Source of the DNA: Candidatus Paceibacter sp. | GTDB taxonomy: Bacteria > Patescibacteriota > Patescibacteriia > DYGC01 | Assembly: GCA_020724925.1 (NCBI GenBank) | Contig: DYGC01000005.1 | Coordinates: 1-35,497 of the forward strand | DNA length: 35,497 nt | Reading direction: 5' to 3' | Part shown: one piece after another, positions 22,854 to 28,190 of the stretch | Layout of the letters: the number at the start of each line of letters is the position of its first letter | Numbering within the stretch: position 1 is the stretch's first letter | Program-made: the position numbers and the translations under genes | The notes under the pieces: model-generated | What the model saw: only the letters and a program-made list of their open reading frames with translations | Databases searched by the model: none | Told to the model about the DNA's origin: nothing

Positions 22854-23130
22854 TCATTCTGGAAAAAGCGTAAGTGTCATCCTGGAAAAAGCGTAAGTGT
22901 CATCCTGAGAGAACATTGGGCCCTTCAGTAGTCATTCCGGGGCTGAGCCACAGGCGAAGAGCCCGGAATCTCGTGATAGTAAGTATCTCTACGTTCACGA
23001 GATCCCGGACAAAAATTTTTTTCAAAAATTTTTTCCGGGATGACTACATTACAGCCGATGTTTTCCTGATGACTACCTTACAGCTGATGTTTCGTATTAT
23101 CCGCACCCTTACCCCCGCCCCAGGATGACA
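22854..23130. repeat. Array of tandem and palindromic intergenic repeats (left of the GC-rich genes)
   Basis: The gap 22741-23233 holds no convincing gene. A 23-base unit, TCATYCTGGAAAAAGCGTAA..., is repeated at 22854-22876 and 22877-22899, with a truncated third copy. A nested palindrome follows: TAGTCATTCCGG (22929-22940) pairs with CCGGGATGACTA (23035-23046), and inside it CCGGAATCTCGTGA (22963-22976) with TCACGAGATCCCGG (22995-23008). A direct repeat, TGACTACMTTACAGCYGATG, is at 23041 and 23070. The core TCATCCTGG/CCAGGATGA recurs at 25362 and across 27800-28190. Confidence 0.8.
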
Positions 23131-23233
23131 AGTCATCATCCTCCCAACAAACCCTTGACAAACATAATAATAATTGATAAGAAAGAGGCGTAAGCGTTAA
23201 TGTTTAAAAATATTGTAGTGTTTTTGTAAAGTA

Positions 23234-23262
23234 TTGACAAAAAAGATTGCTTATGCTACAAT
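23234..23262 (+). promoter_or_regulatory. Strong extended -10 promoter of the first GC-rich gene
   Basis: TTGACA (23234-23239), a 17-base spacer ending in TGC, and TACAAT (23257-23262). It has the same design as the promoter at 25262-25290, and both are followed by a conserved leader. Confidence 0.9.
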
Positions 23263-23268
23263 ATGAGC

Positions 23269-23293
23269 GTTAGAATAGTTGTTTGACAACTGA
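23269..23293 (+). promoter_or_regulatory. Conserved leader with GTTGTTTGACAAC hairpin (copy 1)
   Basis: The 25-base segment GTTAGAATAGTTG...ACTGA differs from the one at 25297-25322 by one insertion and one substitution. It contains AGTTGT-TTG-ACAACT, a 6-bp hairpin. Both copies begin 6 bases after the -10, so they lie at the transcription start. The sequence recalls the boxA-like TTCTTTGAAAACT leaders of Firmicutes rRNA operons; that link is inference. Confidence 0.75.
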
Positions 23294-23314
23294 ATTAATA
23301 TTGAGAATATAAAG

Positions 23315-23376
23315 AACTCATCGGGTGAAATAAGCCGGTTTTCAAAGAAAAAGCGGTTTGTTTCACCCCGTGAGTT
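23315..23376 (+). promoter_or_regulatory. Long hairpin in the leader of the first GC-rich gene
   Basis: The 22-base arms 23315-23336 (AACTCATCGGGTGAAATAAG...) and 23355-23376 pair with 18 Watson-Crick pairs, three G-U pairs and one mismatch around an 18-base loop. There is no T-run after it, so it is not an obvious terminator. Confidence 0.75.
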
Positions 23377-23392
23377 TATAACCCAATTTTTC

Positions 23393-23420
23393 GCCCCCAT
23401 GGGGGCAAAGGAGTACGATC
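23393..23420 (+). promoter_or_regulatory. GC hairpin abutting a strong Shine-Dalgarno (copy 1)
   Basis: The palindrome GCCCCCATGGGGGC (23393-23406) is followed at once by AAAGGAG (23407-23413) and, after 7 bases, the ATG at 23421. The same order and a 22-base near-identity recur at 25608-25637. Strong Shine-Dalgarno sites are otherwise rare in this window. Confidence 0.85.
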
Positions 23421-25037
23421 ATGTTGAAGCAATTGGAACATCACTTTTTTCTCCTGGTGATGGTGGTTTTCGCCATCGTCACCTTCACCTCCAACCCTGT
23501 GTTCGCCGCCCCCGCCCGCAAGGGCGAGGACCCGCGGATCATGGACAAGGCCTTCGCCGAAGCGGCGGGCCTGGTCTGCGGATCCGGGTTCAACAAGACC
23601 CCGGCTGTGGGGAACTACGCCGTAGGAGATTCCTTCTGCATCGGCGAACTCCCCTTGGGAAAGACCATTTCCCAGTCACCGGGTTTCGGCCCGGGAAGCA
23701 AAGGGGAGGAGTCTTTGGTGGATTTCCTGAGCGAAATCCCCGACGATTCGGACTTGATCATCGGCTGCTTCAACGATGAAGTGGCCGTTGTCGGGTGCCA
23801 GAACGCATTGAGCGGCAAGGCCAATGCGTGCAACACCGGCATGGCCGCGGCGCGTTGTCAAAACGCGTTCAACTTGGCCATCCAGGCCAACCCCGGGCTG
23901 TTTGGAAGAACGACCCAGGTGCTGTCCTCGATCAAGGGGGTCCGGCAGGTGGTGTTTTTGGTAAAGAAACGCCCCGTTGCCCCCGCCCCCGCATCCGGCA
24001 GCGAACGCTGCACGGCTGATGAGGTCGCCGCAGCAGCCAAGATCAAATTGGCGGGCGACCACACGGAAGCCTTCAAGGCTCGTGTGGTCGTGATGATCGA
24101 GGGTCAACGCCTCCCCGCCGGCGTCATGGAACGGGTGGTCACCCTGACCATTCCCGGATACGATGAAACCGGCAAAGGTTTCATCGTGAGGCATCCCGAG
24201 CAGGTTAAATCCTGCCGGGTGGGCCTCGTTTCCGCGGGCTCGCTGCCCCCGAATCCGCCCGACGTTCAAGATACCCCCCCGGATCCTCCGGGTGGATATC
24301 CCAAGGAACTGCAGCCCGCCCCCACCCCCGCCCCCGCCGAGCGTGAGACCAACTGCACCGACGGCGTCGACAACGACGACGACGGCAAGATCGACTGCGC
24401 CGACTCCGACTGCCGCGAGCACGCGGCTGTCTGTCAGCCGCAGGACGAGATCTGCGACGACGGCCGGGACAACGACCGCGACGGGTTCACCGACAAGGAC
24501 GATTCGGACTGCCTCAAGCGGCCCGATCCGCCGTCGAAGATCAACCTGGTAGCTTATATCATGGGTTACCAGGAGCGTCCGCCCCGGGAGGAATTCAAGA
24601 ACATGGAGGACCCGGGCCTCCGCTGGAAGGACTATTTCAACTTCCAGATGGGACTTGGTGTCCCGTTCCACGTCGGCAAAGACGTGGTCCTGGTGCCGAG
24701 CTTCGTGGTGGCAACTCGCACCACGCAATACACGGCCGAAGAGACGGTGGGTCCTCTCTTGGGCGACAAGCACGCCTGGGTGGTCGGTGGAGAAATCTCC
24801 CTGCTCAAGAAGGTCGGCAAGACCTTGTGGGCAGGCGTCGAACCCGGGTTTTACTATGGTTCGAGTGGGGTCGATCCCTACTTGAACGGTAAGATCCAGT
24901 ACATGCTCACCCCGCGCGTGGGGGTGGCCGTGGTTTTCGGCGTTCGCGTCGTGAAAAACCACCTCACCGAGGAAGCGGTGTTCATCCCGCGCCTCGGGTT
25001 CCAACTCTCGTTTTCACTGGATCCGATCTTCCAGTGA
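23421..25037 (+). CDS. GC-rich secreted protein with Asp-rich MopE-like modules and beta-rich C-terminus
   Basis: A 538-residue protein of unknown function in a gene much richer in G+C, especially at third positions, than its neighbours. The signal peptide is residues 1-30, ending NPVFAAPA. Residues about 40-190 form a Cys-containing domain. One stretch, LIIGCFNDEVAVVGCQNALS, loosely recalls OmpA-C spacing but cannot be assigned. A Pro-rich linker (PAPTPAPAE) leads to two Asp-rich modules near 310-350 (CTDGVDNDDDGKIDC and ICDDGRDNDRDGFTD), of the putative metal-binding MopE type common in Myxococcota and relatives. Residues about 375-538 alternate Gly and aromatic residues and end LGFQLSFSLDPIFQ, like an outer-membrane beta-barrel. 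That would be odd in a cell with a single membrane. It has its own promoter, structured leader and terminator. Transfer from a GC-rich donor is likely; a chimeric assembly is a less likely alternative. Confidence 0.88.
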   Translation: MLKQLEHHFFLLVMVVFAIVTFTSNPVFAAPARKGEDPRIMDKAFAEAAGLVCGSGFNKTPAVGNYAVGDSFCIGELPLGKTISQSPGFGPGSKGEESLVDFLSEIPDDSDLIIGCFNDEVAVVGCQNALSGKANACNTGMAAARCQNAFNLAIQANPGLFGRTTQVLSSIKGVRQVVFLVKKRPVAPAPASGSERCTADEVAAAAKIKLAGDHTEAFKARVVVMIEGQRLPAGVMERVVTLTIPGYDETGKGFIVRHPEQVKSCRVGLVSAGSLPPNPPDVQDTPPDPPGGYPKELQPAPTPAPAERETNCTDGVDNDDDGKIDCADSDCREHAAVCQPQDEICDDGRDNDRDGFTDKDDSDCLKRPDPPSKINLVAYIMGYQERPPREEFKNMEDPGLRWKDYFNFQMGLGVPFHVGKDVVLVPSFVVATRTTQYTAEETVGPLLGDKHAWVVGGEISLLKKVGKTLWAGVEPGFYYGSSGVDPYLNGKIQYMLTPRVGVAVVFGVRVVKNHLTEEAVFIPRLGFQLSFSLDPIFQ

Positions 25038-25059
25038 ACGAGAGGTGTTCAATATCAAG

Positions 25060-25122
25060 ACATCAAAGGAATTTTAGCTTAAAGAAAGGAGTCAAATCAT
25101 GAGCTAAATTGAACTTTGGTGT
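25060..25122 (+). promoter_or_regulatory. Downstream hairpin displaying a Shine-Dalgarno and a two-codon reading frame
   Basis: ACATCAAAG...AATTTTAGCT (25060-25079) pairs with AGCTAAATT...CTTTGGTGT (25102-25122), with one G-U pair and a bulge. The loop carries AAAGGAG (25085-25091), 7 bases, then ATG-AGC-TAA (25099-25107). The Shine-Dalgarno and spacing copy those of the two GC-rich genes, but only Met-Ser is encoded. The loop shares ATCATGAGC with the hairpin after the second gene. Confidence 0.6.
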
Positions 25123-25134
25123 TTCAAGTCTTTC

Positions 25135-25177
25135 GAGCCCTGTACACAATGGTGTGTACAGGGCTCAGTTTATTTCT
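25135..25177 (+). terminator. Terminator of the first GC-rich gene
   Basis: A 13-bp perfect stem: GAGCCCTGTACAC (25135-25147) pairs with GTGTACAGGGCTC (25154-25166). It is followed by AGTTTATTTCT. The U-run is modest but the stem is very stable. Confidence 0.75.
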
Positions 25178-25261
25178 AGAGCTTTATTGACAAAGCATTT
25201 TTTGAGTGTTAAGACCAAATTATAATTAGTGTATTTTTAAATAATGTTAAGCTCAATTTAC

Positions 25262-25290
25262 TTGACATTATTTTGCCAATATGCTATAAT
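25262..25290 (+). promoter_or_regulatory. Consensus extended -10 promoter of the second GC-rich gene
   Basis: TTGACA (25262-25267), 17 bases ending in TGC, and TATAAT (25285-25290) match the sigma70 consensus at every hexamer position. It predicts a leader of about 340 bases. Confidence 0.93.
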
Positions 25291-25296
25291 ATATCT

Positions 25297-25322
25297 GTTA
25301 GAAAAAGTTGTTTGACAACTGA
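25297..25322 (+). promoter_or_regulatory. Conserved leader with GTTGTTTGACAAC hairpin (copy 2)
   Basis: GTTAGAAAAAGTTG...ACTGA matches the segment at 23269-23293 at nearly every base, at the same distance from the -10. The AGTTGT-TTG-ACAACT hairpin is unchanged. Confidence 0.75.
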
Positions 25323-25361
25323 TTGATTGGGTTATTTTGAGTAGTTATCATGAACAAGTGT

Positions 25362-25387
25362 TAGGTCATCCTGAACTTGTTTCAGGA
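25362..25387. repeat. Single palindromic repeat, GTCATCCTGAACTTGTTTCAG type
   Basis: A palindrome, ATCCTGAA-CTTG-TTTCAGGAT. It matches the ends of the GIY-YIG cassette at 12512 and 13032 except for paired changes (GC-to-CT and GG-to-AG) that keep the stem. It lies inside the leader of the second GC-rich gene. Confidence 0.7.
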
Positions 25388-25417
25388 TCTCTTTAATAAT
25401 CATTATCAATCCATTCC

Positions 25418-25584
25418 CTTGCCACTTTCAACCGCTGATGGACGAGAATTCTTATTTTGAGCAGACTTTCGTTTAATCTTTAAGGATTAACATGAGACAA
25501 GCAATAAAATTTTAGACATAGTAAATCAAATTGATTAAACAATGTTTTGTTCAAAATAGTCAATCAGTGATTGAAAGTGGTAAG
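25418..25584 (+). promoter_or_regulatory. Very long imperfect hairpin in the leader of the second GC-rich gene
   Basis: Three nested stems are visible. 25418-25439 pairs with 25563-25584 (22 bases, core CCACTTTCAA/TTGAAAGTGG, with two G-U pairs and one mismatch). 25453-25463 pairs with 25549-25559 (TATTTTGAGCA/TGTTCAAAATA). 25471-25478 pairs with 25533-25540 (GTTTAATC/GATTAAAC). The sequence differs from the leader hairpin of the first gene, but the position, between the conserved leader and the Shine-Dalgarno hairpin, is the same. Confidence 0.7.
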
Positions 25585-25607
25585 ATATTTTTCTGAAATT
25601 CAAAACC

Positions 25608-25637
25608 GCCCCTTTTGAGGGGCAAAGGAGTAGGATC
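25608..25637 (+). promoter_or_regulatory. GC hairpin abutting a strong Shine-Dalgarno (copy 2)
   Basis: GCCCC-TTTTGA-GGGGC (25608-25623) is followed by AAAGGAG (25624-25630), 7 bases and the ATG at 25638. The stretch GGGGCAAAGGAGTA(G/C)GATC is shared with 23402-23420. Confidence 0.85.
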
Positions 25638-27611
25638 ATGGTACGCTTTTCTTTTGGTCTGTTTTTTTTGATGATGGTGGTCGCCGCCTGCTCGGAGACC
25701 GGCGGGGCACTGACCCCCGAGGAACTCTGCGGCAACGGCGCCCTCGACGAGGGTGAGACCTGCGACGGCACCAACTTCGGCGGCAAGACCTGCGTGACGC
25801 AGGGCTTCGTCGGCGGCACCCTCGCCTGCACCGCCGCCTGCAAGTTCGACACGACGGGGTGCGAAACCCCGCCGGTGGAGGACTGCGACGACAACGTCGA
25901 CAACGACGGCGACGGCGACATCGACTGCGATGACGCCGACTGCGCCGAGGACCCGGCCTGCACGGCCGAGGACTGCGGCAACGGCAGCATCGAGACCGGC
26001 GAGCACTGCGACGGCGAAAACCTGGGCGGCAAGACCTGCCAAACCCAGGGCTTCGCCAGCGGCACGCTGGCCTGCACCACGGCCTGCAAGTTCGACACCA
26101 CCGGGTGTCGGGCGGCCGAGGATTGCGACAACGGCGTCGATGACGACGGCAACGGCGCCATCGACTGTTTCGACGACGCCTGCTTCGGCCACACCGCTTG
26201 CATGGGTGTGGTCTGCGGCGACGGCATCGCCGACGAGGGCGAGGTCTGCGACGACACCGATCTGGGTGGTCGGACCTGCGTATCCCTCGGATACGCGGGG
26301 GGCACGCTGGCCTGCACGGCCAGCTGCCTGCTGAGCACCGCCGGCTGTACCGGCGTTCCCGCGGTTTGCGGCAACGCCGTCTGTGAGACCGGCGAGACCG
26401 AACTTTCCTGCCCCGCGGACTGCGGTGGCGGGGCCGTCTGCGGCAACGGGGTTCTCAACCCCGGTGAGAACTGCGACGGCAGCGCCCTGGGCGGAAACAG
26501 CTGCGTCTCCCTGGGTTACACCAGGGGCACGCTGAGCTGCAACTCCGCCTGCCAATTCAACACGTCCGGCTGCACGCGCTGCGGTAACGGCGTCTGCGAG
26601 AGCGGTGAGGACTACAACTCCTGCCCCGCGGACTGCCAGGCCCCGGTGCTGTGCGGCAACGGCATGTTGAACGGCAGCGAGGTCTGCGACGGCTCGAACC
26701 TGAACGGCCAGACCTGCGCCTCCCTCGGTTTCGTCGGCGGCACCCTGGCCTGCAACGCCAGCTGCACCTTCAACACGGCCAGCTGCACGATGTGCGGCAA
26801 CGGCCTGCTGAACGGGTCCGAGGTCTGCGACGGCTCGAACCTCAACGGCCAGACCTGCGTGTCCCGCGGCTACGCCGGCGGGACCCTGGCCTGCAACTCG
26901 ACCTGCACGGCCTTCGTCGTCACCGGTTGCTCGAGCAGCACCGGCGAGACCATCTGCAACGATGGCCTCGACAACGATGGCGACGGCCGCATCGATTCCC
27001 AGGACCCCGACTGCGGGGTCTTCTCCGGGATCGAGCAGAACTGCACCGACGGCATCGACAACGACAGCGACGGCTACGTCGACTGTTGGGACTACGATTG
27101 CGTCGGGGCCGACGCCTGTCGCCCGGCCTCCCAGGCGGGCGTGAATTCATACTTTGTCTGTCTTCCCGGAGTGAACACAACCGAGTTCGGTTGTGTCTGT
27201 TCCGACGACCTGACCAACTGGTCAGGTCACCATGCCACGGGGCGCGTGTGCATGGGGAATGCAAAACGAAACAACGTGTATGAGATCGCATGGTCTCAGG
27301 GAGGGTGCTCGCCCTCGGAGATCCTGAGATACATGGATCAGGATGGAAACCGGGATTTCTCGGTCCTCCGTTTCATGCACGTCAGCAACGTTTACGGCGC
27401 CGCCGACAACATGGCGCTGATCGTTGGTTGCTCCATCAACCCGTCCACAGGGTTGAGGACGCAGGCCAACATGATGGTCCTGGAGAACCGCTATGACGCG
27501 GCCCAGCAGACCATCCGGAACCAGCTGTTCGGCAGCAGCTGGCTCCAAGTCTCCACCGGCACCGCTGCGGAGGACGCAGTGGATTGGTGGTCGACGTTCT
27601 ACCCCCGGTAG
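25638..27611 (+). CDS. GC-rich Cys-rich repeat lipoprotein with Asp-rich MopE-like modules
   Basis: A 657-residue putative lipoprotein. The lipobox VVAAC (Cys18) follows a short hydrophobic segment, so the mature protein should be lipid-anchored outside the cell. Residues about 28-440 hold six copies of a Cys-rich unit with the pattern CGNG-x-L-x-x-G-E-x-CDG ... GGTLAC ... C. Two shorter CGNxVCExGE...CPADC units are interspersed, plus two Asp-rich modules (DNVDNDGDGDIDC and NGVDDDGNGAIDC). Two further Asp-rich modules at about 437-490 (DNDGDGRID and DNDSDGYVD) lead into a unique C-terminal domain of about 160 residues with Cys and Trp. The Cys-rich units resemble repeats of Myxococcota surface proteins and the Asp-rich ones MopE-type calcium or copper sites; ligand and role are unproven. 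GC content is far above the flanks. Several perfect inverted repeats lie inside the coding sequence near 27003, 27175 and 27207. Confidence 0.9.
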   Translation: MVRFSFGLFFLMMVVAACSETGGALTPEELCGNGALDEGETCDGTNFGGKTCVTQGFVGGTLACTAACKFDTTGCETPPVEDCDDNVDNDGDGDIDCDDADCAEDPACTAEDCGNGSIETGEHCDGENLGGKTCQTQGFASGTLACTTACKFDTTGCRAAEDCDNGVDDDGNGAIDCFDDACFGHTACMGVVCGDGIADEGEVCDDTDLGGRTCVSLGYAGGTLACTASCLLSTAGCTGVPAVCGNAVCETGETELSCPADCGGGAVCGNGVLNPGENCDGSALGGNSCVSLGYTRGTLSCNSACQFNTSGCTRCGNGVCESGEDYNSCPADCQAPVLCGNGMLNGSEVCDGSNLNGQTCASLGFVGGTLACNASCTFNTASCTMCGNGLLNGSEVCDGSNLNGQTCVSRGYAGGTLACNSTCTAFVVTGCSSSTGETICNDGLDNDGDGRIDSQDPDCGVFSGIEQNCTDGIDNDSDGYVDCWDYDCVGADACRPASQAGVNSYFVCLPGVNTTEFGCVCSDDLTNWSGHHATGRVCMGNAKRNNVYEIAWSQGGCSPSEILRYMDQDGNRDFSVLRFMHVSNVYGAADNMALIVGCSINPSTGLRTQANMMVLENRYDAAQQTIRNQLFGSSWLQVSTGTAAEDAVDWWSTFYPR

Positions 27612-27628
27612 AACGTCAAAATCCCCCT

Positions 27629-27655
27629 GGTTAAGATCATGAGCAAATCTTAACC
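27629..27655 (+). promoter_or_regulatory. Downstream hairpin with ATGAGC loop after the second GC-rich gene
   Basis: A perfect 9-bp stem, GGTTAAGAT (27629-27637) with ATCTTAACC (27647-27655), closes the loop CATGAGCAA. The sequence ATCATGAGC is also in the loop after the first gene. There is no T-run; the real terminator follows at 27712. Confidence 0.65.
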
Positions 27656-27711
27656 TCATATCCCTTCGCTCATTCATTTTGCCCGCGTCTGGGCAATTCC
27701 CAAAATCAAGA

Positions 27712-27757
27712 CCCCCCCTTTGTTTACTAACACTAAACATTGCGGGGGGTTTTGTCG
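27712..27757 (+). terminator. Terminator of the second GC-rich gene
   Basis: The outer stem CCCCCC (27712-27718 tract) with GGGGGG (27744-27749) and the inner stem TGTTTA/TAAACA are followed by TTTTGTCGTTTT. Confidence 0.8.
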
Positions 27758-27799
27758 TTTTAGGGGGTAAAACAACAAGAGGCGTATCATCTTGCGATT

Positions 27800-28190
27800 T
27801 GTCATCCTGGAGGTTGTTGCTTTGTCATCCTGGAAAATTTTGCTGAAAGCAAAATTTATCCAGGTAGTTTACCCCGGTATATGAATTAGTAAAAACAATA
27901 AATAACAGCCGGGGCCCATAGTATGAACGTTCCTACCCCCGGCTGATAATTCATACAATTGCTAATTGTCATGCCGGGGCAGGCTATGTGAGATCCTTGG
28001 TTCTAATCCTCATTGCATTCGGATTAGCCCCAGGATGACAATACACCATTATCCCTAGCAATAAAGTTCGTCCATACTATAGGCGAGATCCTGGGTTCGC
28101 TTGTTACACAAGCGCCCCAGGATGACAGAACCCAACCCCTTATCCTGAAACACCCCGGACTTGACCCGGGGCAGGATGACGCAATCCCTA
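27800..28190. repeat. Array of imperfect palindromes with GTCATCCTGG/CCAGGATGACA ends (right of the GC-rich genes)
   Basis: The 700-base gap 27612-28312 contains, apart from the hairpins above, only repeats. Visible are GTCATCCTGGA at 27801 and 27825, and AAATTTTGC-tgaa-AGCAAAATTT near 27836. A two-stage palindrome has TATGAATTA (27880-27888)/TAATTCATA (27947-27955) around CAGCCGGGG (27906-27914)/CCCCGGCTG (27937-27945). Stems ending in CCAGGATGACA lie near 28030 and 28112, and CCCCGG-acttga-CCGGGG near 28163. I see no gene here. They resemble REP elements. Confidence 0.8.

Follow-up and report, generated by a model that had tools for sequence, protein, structure and literature searches.

Two GC-rich genes for probable surface proteins lie behind rRNA-type, boxA-like leaders in a Candidatus Paceibacter genome

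Two single-gene units with a common plan

The window, by which we mean the whole 35,497-nt stretch analysed, is the entire contig C27 of a Candidatus Paceibacter sp. genome (681,849 bases in 31 contigs, 80% complete, contamination estimate 0.01). The collection we used holds no other genome of the host's family, and the genomes of relatives in the same phylum measure 0.4–2 Mb. Two genes in the window each occupy a transcription unit of their own, with the following features.

23234..23262, plus strand: promoter of unit 1, TTGACA-N17-TACAAT with an extended −10 TG (from the sequence)
23277..23293, plus strand: boxA-like leader element AGTTGTTTGACAACTGA of unit 1, 14 nt past the −10; also found in 16S/23S rRNA leaders
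23314..23377, plus strand: long leader hairpin of unit 1 (by folding)
23393..23406, plus strand: GC hairpin of unit 1, GCCCCC-AT-GGGGGC, abutting the Shine–Dalgarno (SD) sequence (from the sequence and folding)
23407..23413, plus strand: SD sequence AAAGGAG of unit 1, 7 nt from the ATG (from the sequence)
23421..25037, plus strand: gene 1, predicted 538-aa secreted protein, GC3 0.79 (N-terminal signal, repeats)
25135..25177, plus strand: intrinsic terminator of unit 1 (from the sequence and folding)
25262..25290, plus strand: promoter of unit 2, TTGACA-N17-TATAAT with an extended −10 TG (from the sequence)
25306..25322, plus strand: boxA-like leader element AGTTGTTTGACAACTGA of unit 2, 15 nt past the −10 (by motif search)
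25419..25584, plus strand: long leader hairpin of unit 2 (by folding)
25608..25623, plus strand: GC hairpin of unit 2, GCCCC-TTTTGA-GGGGC, abutting the SD sequence (from the sequence and folding)
25624..25630, plus strand: SD sequence AAAGGAG of unit 2, 7 nt from the ATG (from the sequence)
25638..27611, plus strand: gene 2, 657-aa putative lipoprotein, GC3 0.87 (VVAACS lipobox identified by eye, repeats)
27629..27655, plus strand: trailer hairpin of unit 2, GGTTAAGAT-CATGAGCAA-ATCTTAACC (by folding; likeness to unit 1 not significant)
27712..27759, plus strand: intrinsic terminator of unit 2 (from the sequence and folding)

Both units thus run from promoter through AGTTGTTTGACAACTGA, a long hairpin, a GC hairpin and AAAGGAG-N7-ATG to the coding sequence and a terminator, and folding confirmed the long and GC hairpins in each. 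The distance from the end of the leader element to the SD sequence is 113 nt in unit 1 and 301 nt in unit 2 (127 and 315 nt to the ATG). When the two units were aligned, their promoter and leader halves scored 54 against a best score of 29 among 300 dinucleotide shuffles, and their SD halves, which contain GGGGCAAAGGAGTANGATCATG, scored 39 against a best of 24 among as many. A genome search for the 22-base segments that end at the two ATGs, proposed in the initial annotation, returned exactly two matches to the block GGGGCAAAGGAGTANGATCATG at up to three mismatches, namely units 1 and 2. The shared cassette described in that annotation therefore holds for promoter, leader, hairpins and SD block, but not for the ATCATGAGC trailer, whose score of 21 was reached by 12 of 300 shuffles and is at chance level; a clean 9-bp stem is present at the trailer of gene 2 only.

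Short inverted repeats of the form GTCATCCTGG...CCAGGATGAC are dispersed intergenically, in the window at 22880–23140, 25365–25392 and 27790–28180 and also at two other loci (L048 and L056); one copy lies inside the gene 2 leader.

Composition changes at the edges of the coding sequences

The coding sequences have an overall GC content of 0.62 (gene 1, 23421–25037) and 0.66 (gene 2, 25638–27611), and their GC3 values are the two highest among 411 ORFs sampled from 437 kb of the genome (31 stretches, including the window). The genome median is about 0.38 and the remaining genes of the window lie at about 0.2–0.5. GC3 already stands at 0.70 and 0.65 in codons 1–20 of genes 1 and 2, respectively, and the 150 nt upstream of each ATG are 17–40% GC, the GC hairpin excepted, so the shift in composition falls at the coding edges. 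This agrees with the earlier description of GC-rich coding sequences with G or C in third positions between AT-rich control regions.

The leader element resembles the boxA of rRNA operons

In the host genome AGTTGTTTGACAACTGA has two exact copies, those of units 1 and 2, and one further match at two mismatches; a reversed control motif gave none. The third match (C12:1309–1325, 15 of 17 positions identical) is in the leader of the host 23S rRNA, where it lies 16 nt past the −10 of a TTGACA-N17-TATAAT promoter, as compared with 14 and 15 nt in units 1 and 2. Allowing one mismatch, five matches were found in other genomes of the class, four of them ahead of rRNA genes: 16S at three loci (L009, L010 and L011) and 23S at a fourth (L013). 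In rRNA leaders, boxA is the RNA site bound by NusB–S10. The consensus described for gamma-proteobacteria is GYTCTTTAANA (PMC5725501). By its place and its form, AGTTGTTTGACAACTGA is a boxA-like leader element of the rRNA type, an identity that escaped the earlier reading. Rfam matched no known leader RNA, and our literature search turned up nothing published about boxA leaders of Patescibacteria. A search of the host bin, which is 80% complete, did not find NusB; since it is present in 54 of 57 genomes of the class, its gene is probably in the fifth of the genome that the bin lacks.

In the host (C12, 1–1325), a protein gene and a terminator come first, followed by a promoter and boxA that belong to the 23S rRNA gene alone; the latter is not directly preceded by a 16S gene, which is absent from the bin. 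The 23S locus L013 (G040) has a similar arrangement. In a phylum-wide search for the exact boxA, one match (L033) fell within a coding region, and at another locus (L035, G004:C11:25643) a promoter and GTTGTTTGACAATTGA precede hairpins and no ORFs other than very short ones, with no clear gene; this may be a boxA-led non-coding RNA or else a chance match. The exact 17-mer also occurs in two viral contigs, which are unrelated GC-rich phage.

The fifth class match, in a genome of another family (G224), precedes protein genes. There a promoter, the boxA element and a long hairpin are followed by an operon for a 382-aa secreted protein and a 522-aa putative lipoprotein, with an SD sequence before each gene; the 382-aa protein has no relative among 272 sampled genomes of the class. 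Taken alone, this motif match could be due to chance, as the reversed control gave four matches in 286 genomes in the class search, but given what surrounds it we count it as a good candidate for a boxA-led protein unit. Downstream of this operon, on the minus strand at about 6250–6900 of L024 (G224:C2), are several hairpins and a second boxA-like sequence, TCGTTCTTTGAAAATTGGACC; the region is possibly a structured RNA and has no Rfam match.

The two genes belong to a dispersed class of SD-led, GC3-rich genes

A strong SD sequence precedes 34 of the 411 sampled ORFs (control motifs, 16), and these SD-led ORFs differ from the rest in codon composition, with a median GC3 of 0.53 versus 0.38 (p 3e-10). 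Every ORF whose GC3 reaches 0.6 is SD-led: there are 12 of them among the 34, as compared with none among the 377 ORFs lacking a strong SD sequence (Fisher 1e-14). Genes 1 and 2 are therefore the extreme members of a set of SD-led, GC3-rich and mostly orphan genes scattered over many contigs, a wider class that the initial annotation had missed. Among its members are a putative lipoprotein with an M23 peptidase, a PAS/HATPase protein, a CDP-alcohol phosphatidyltransferase and a hexapeptide-repeat protein. As a whole it is not phage-like. Only 1 of the 19 members whose GC3 reaches 0.5 has a homologue in the sample from G056, a genome of another family, versus 118 of 377 other genes.

The same coupling is found in G056 itself, where GC3 is 0.65 in SD-led ORFs and 0.49 in others (p 7e-6) and 12 of 22 SD-led ORFs reach 0.6 as compared with 12 of 369 others (p 6e-11). 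The SD-led ORFs of G056 often lie close behind promoters of their own, and no boxA leaders were found before them. G023 shows a weak coupling (p 0.01); G224 lacks it, and none could be shown in G001, G005 or G230. The initial annotation would have taken a lack of these leaders on any other gene of related genomes as refuting its reading: for the exact leader this is nearly the case, only the G224 operon being a comparable protein unit, but it is not so for the broader SD-led, GC3-rich class.

A boxA-like GTTCTTTAA lies soon after a −10-like hexamer at two further SD-led genes of the host, an STPK gene (GC3 0.68) and a gene for a 311-aa orphan (L046:9144, GC3 0.71). The STPK leader fits the consensus GYTCTTTAANA, which comes from a group other than the host's, the gamma-proteobacteria (PMC5725501). 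Within 160 nt upstream, a span that the boxA of gene 2 exceeds, GTTCTTTAA precedes 3 of 34 SD-led and 1 of 361 other genes (p 0.002), a count that involves few genes and a motif picked after looking. Elsewhere in the genome (L054 on C16, 5817–7373) three short SD-led orphan genes are clustered, one with a GC hairpin abutting its SD sequence like those of units 1 and 2. A 7-kb contig of another genome (G005:C2, L088) has GC3 values up to 0.9 where the genome stands at about 0.45, and is probably contamination or a foreign element. Our literature search found no paper that treats the SD-led genes of CPR bacteria as a class.

Encoded proteins and origin of the coding sequences

The gene 1 protein has an N-terminal signal, two acidic double-disulfide repeats and a C-terminal region without a known fold, putatively barrel-like in appearance; the gene 2 protein has Cys-rich and acidic double-disulfide repeats. 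Both exceed the curated cutoff of NCBIfam NF033662 (57.8 and 73.7 bits for genes 1 and 2, cutoff 41). Gene 1 matched no Pfam family above cutoff, no homologue of known function was found for either protein, and AF2 models of both C-terminal regions (pLDDT about 34) were too poor for a fold search.

The initial annotation had taken the repeats to be typical of Myxococcota-type surface proteins. This attribution is not supported, since the acidic repeat is widespread in the host's own class (40 of 272 sampled genomes) and gene 2 has a paralogue (L025 on C5, 9830–10933; 34% identity over 397 aa) with a host-like GC3 of 0.39 and no boxA. A donor search for gene 1 across 84,980 genomes, a scan that detects close relatives only, matched just the repeat region, in Myxococcales, Deltaproteobacteria, Micrarchaeota and Peribacteria, and no plasmid match was found for gene 2. 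A phage origin, also considered, was rejected: there was no PHROGs match and no support from viral contigs.

Basic, mostly ribosomal proteins of the host have a GC3 of about 0.35, so high expression alone does not explain the composition of genes 1 and 2, and acquisition from GC-rich sources is the likelier cause. Of the earlier proposal that foreign coding sequences sit in a dedicated high-expression cassette, the plan for strong expression, the host-type flanks and a GC3 change precise to the coding sequence are supported; the Myxococcota link is not.

Discussion

On balance we think it somewhat more likely than not that genes 1 and 2 are accessory surface genes, with coding sequences that were probably acquired, on strong, rRNA-like, antiterminated single-gene units. 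Each gene would be transcribed alone from a strong sigma70-type promoter, and its product, secreted (gene 1) or a lipoprotein (gene 2), would be an accessory protein of the cell surface. The leader appears to copy the plan of an rRNA leader, with boxA about 15 nt past the −10 and then a stable hairpin; NusB–S10 bound at boxA would load an antitermination complex, and this would make polymerase fast and Rho-resistant through a long GC-rich message. The leader hairpins may shield the 5′ end of the mRNA, and the strong SD sequence, missing from most genes of the genome, would drive initiation by ribosomes and yield abundant protein. The control regions are of host type. For the coding sequences, we infer that GC-rich relatives or partners are the most likely source and that amelioration has not taken place.

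The leader element could instead serve regulation rather than processivity, with Nus factors bound to the leader repressing or tuning the genes with ribosome supply, such that surface-protein synthesis tracks rRNA synthesis. Escherichia coli suhB offers a precedent, since boxA in its 5′ UTR causes repression, but that boxA lies 6 nt from the SD sequence and blocks it sterically (PMC5725501). In units 1 and 2 boxA does not adjoin the SD sequence: the 113 and 301 nt between them hold hairpins, as in rRNA leaders, and this distance makes suhB-type repression the less likely reading; we regard a regulatory boxA as quite unlikely. We put slightly less weight again on the idea that a repressor of surface genes uses the 17-base leader as its operator, in DNA or RNA, and that the resemblance to rRNA leaders is only incidental. 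The perfect 5+5 inverted repeat AGTTG-N5-CAACT in both units, which folds as a small hairpin, would suit an operator; however, the host 23S copy (CAATT) and several rRNA leaders of the class depart from the inverted repeat yet retain GTT(G/A)TTTGACAA, and the element is placed behind the −10 just as it is in the 23S unit.

For the high GC3, selection is the more serious competitor of acquisition, albeit a minority one in our judgement: G/C-ending codons might arise from the translation mode or mRNA structure of SD-led genes. The switch falls exactly at the coding edges and is tied to SD sequences in two families, and because neutral amelioration should affect UTRs and third positions equally, codon selection keeps some plausibility. 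It is countered by the low GC3 of the basic, mostly ribosomal proteins, which are expected to be highly expressed, by the mostly lineage-specific nature of the SD-led genes and by the gene 2 paralogue at 0.39. That GC-rich pieces of another organism were joined into the contig by misassembly or contamination is most improbable. The genome is indeed a fragmented bin, but host-type promoters, leaders and terminators flank both genes, as the initial annotation had argued, the contamination estimate is low, and we see no sign of a misjoin, since genes that couple GC3 and SD in this way are spread over many contigs and recur in G056, whose contigs measure 139–622 kb.

To our knowledge, only a few proteobacterial genes have been shown to produce mRNAs under boxA/Nus control; here, rRNA-type leaders precede surface-protein genes of an uncultivated bacterium with a reduced genome. 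The link between SD use and GC3 provides a simple computational handle on accessory, probably contact-related genes in such genomes, and with it a practical route to surface proteins with a possible role in attachment to partner cells. More speculatively, and we think it unlikely, members of the class might harbour a second stratum of genes amid SD-less housekeeping genes: single-gene units with strong sigma70 promoters, strong SD sequences, G/C-ending codons and terminators. Partner cells would continually resupply this stratum, or it would be tuned to their translation machinery, and some lineages would have added boxA leaders of the rRNA type, which would place surface proteins among the most transcribed messages.

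Comparison with known systems

Like the boxA leaders of rRNA operons, which act in NusB/NusE antitermination, units 1 and 2 have a strong promoter, boxA soon after the −10 and a 15/17 match to the host 23S element; unlike them, they drive single protein genes with a strong SD sequence and have long stable hairpins between boxA and gene. The known boxA-regulated mRNAs, E. coli suhB (repressed) and Citrobacter koseri CKO_00699, come from work that surveyed mRNAs for boxA within 50 nt of the start (PMC5725501). They too are protein-coding and have boxA in the 5′ UTR, whereas in units 1 and 2, which serve surface-protein genes of a Patescibacteria-like genome, stretches of 127 and 315 nt with hairpins separate the end of boxA from the ATG. 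The two products resemble acidic double-disulfide proteins in scoring above the curated NF033662 cutoff and differ from them in that the rest of gene 1 matches nothing and GC3 is far from that of the genome. Finally, as with horizontally acquired genes of atypical codon usage, the set is atypical in GC3, lineage-specific and dispersed; what distinguishes it is that the atypical genes are the SD users of an SD-poor genome and that their control regions are host-like.
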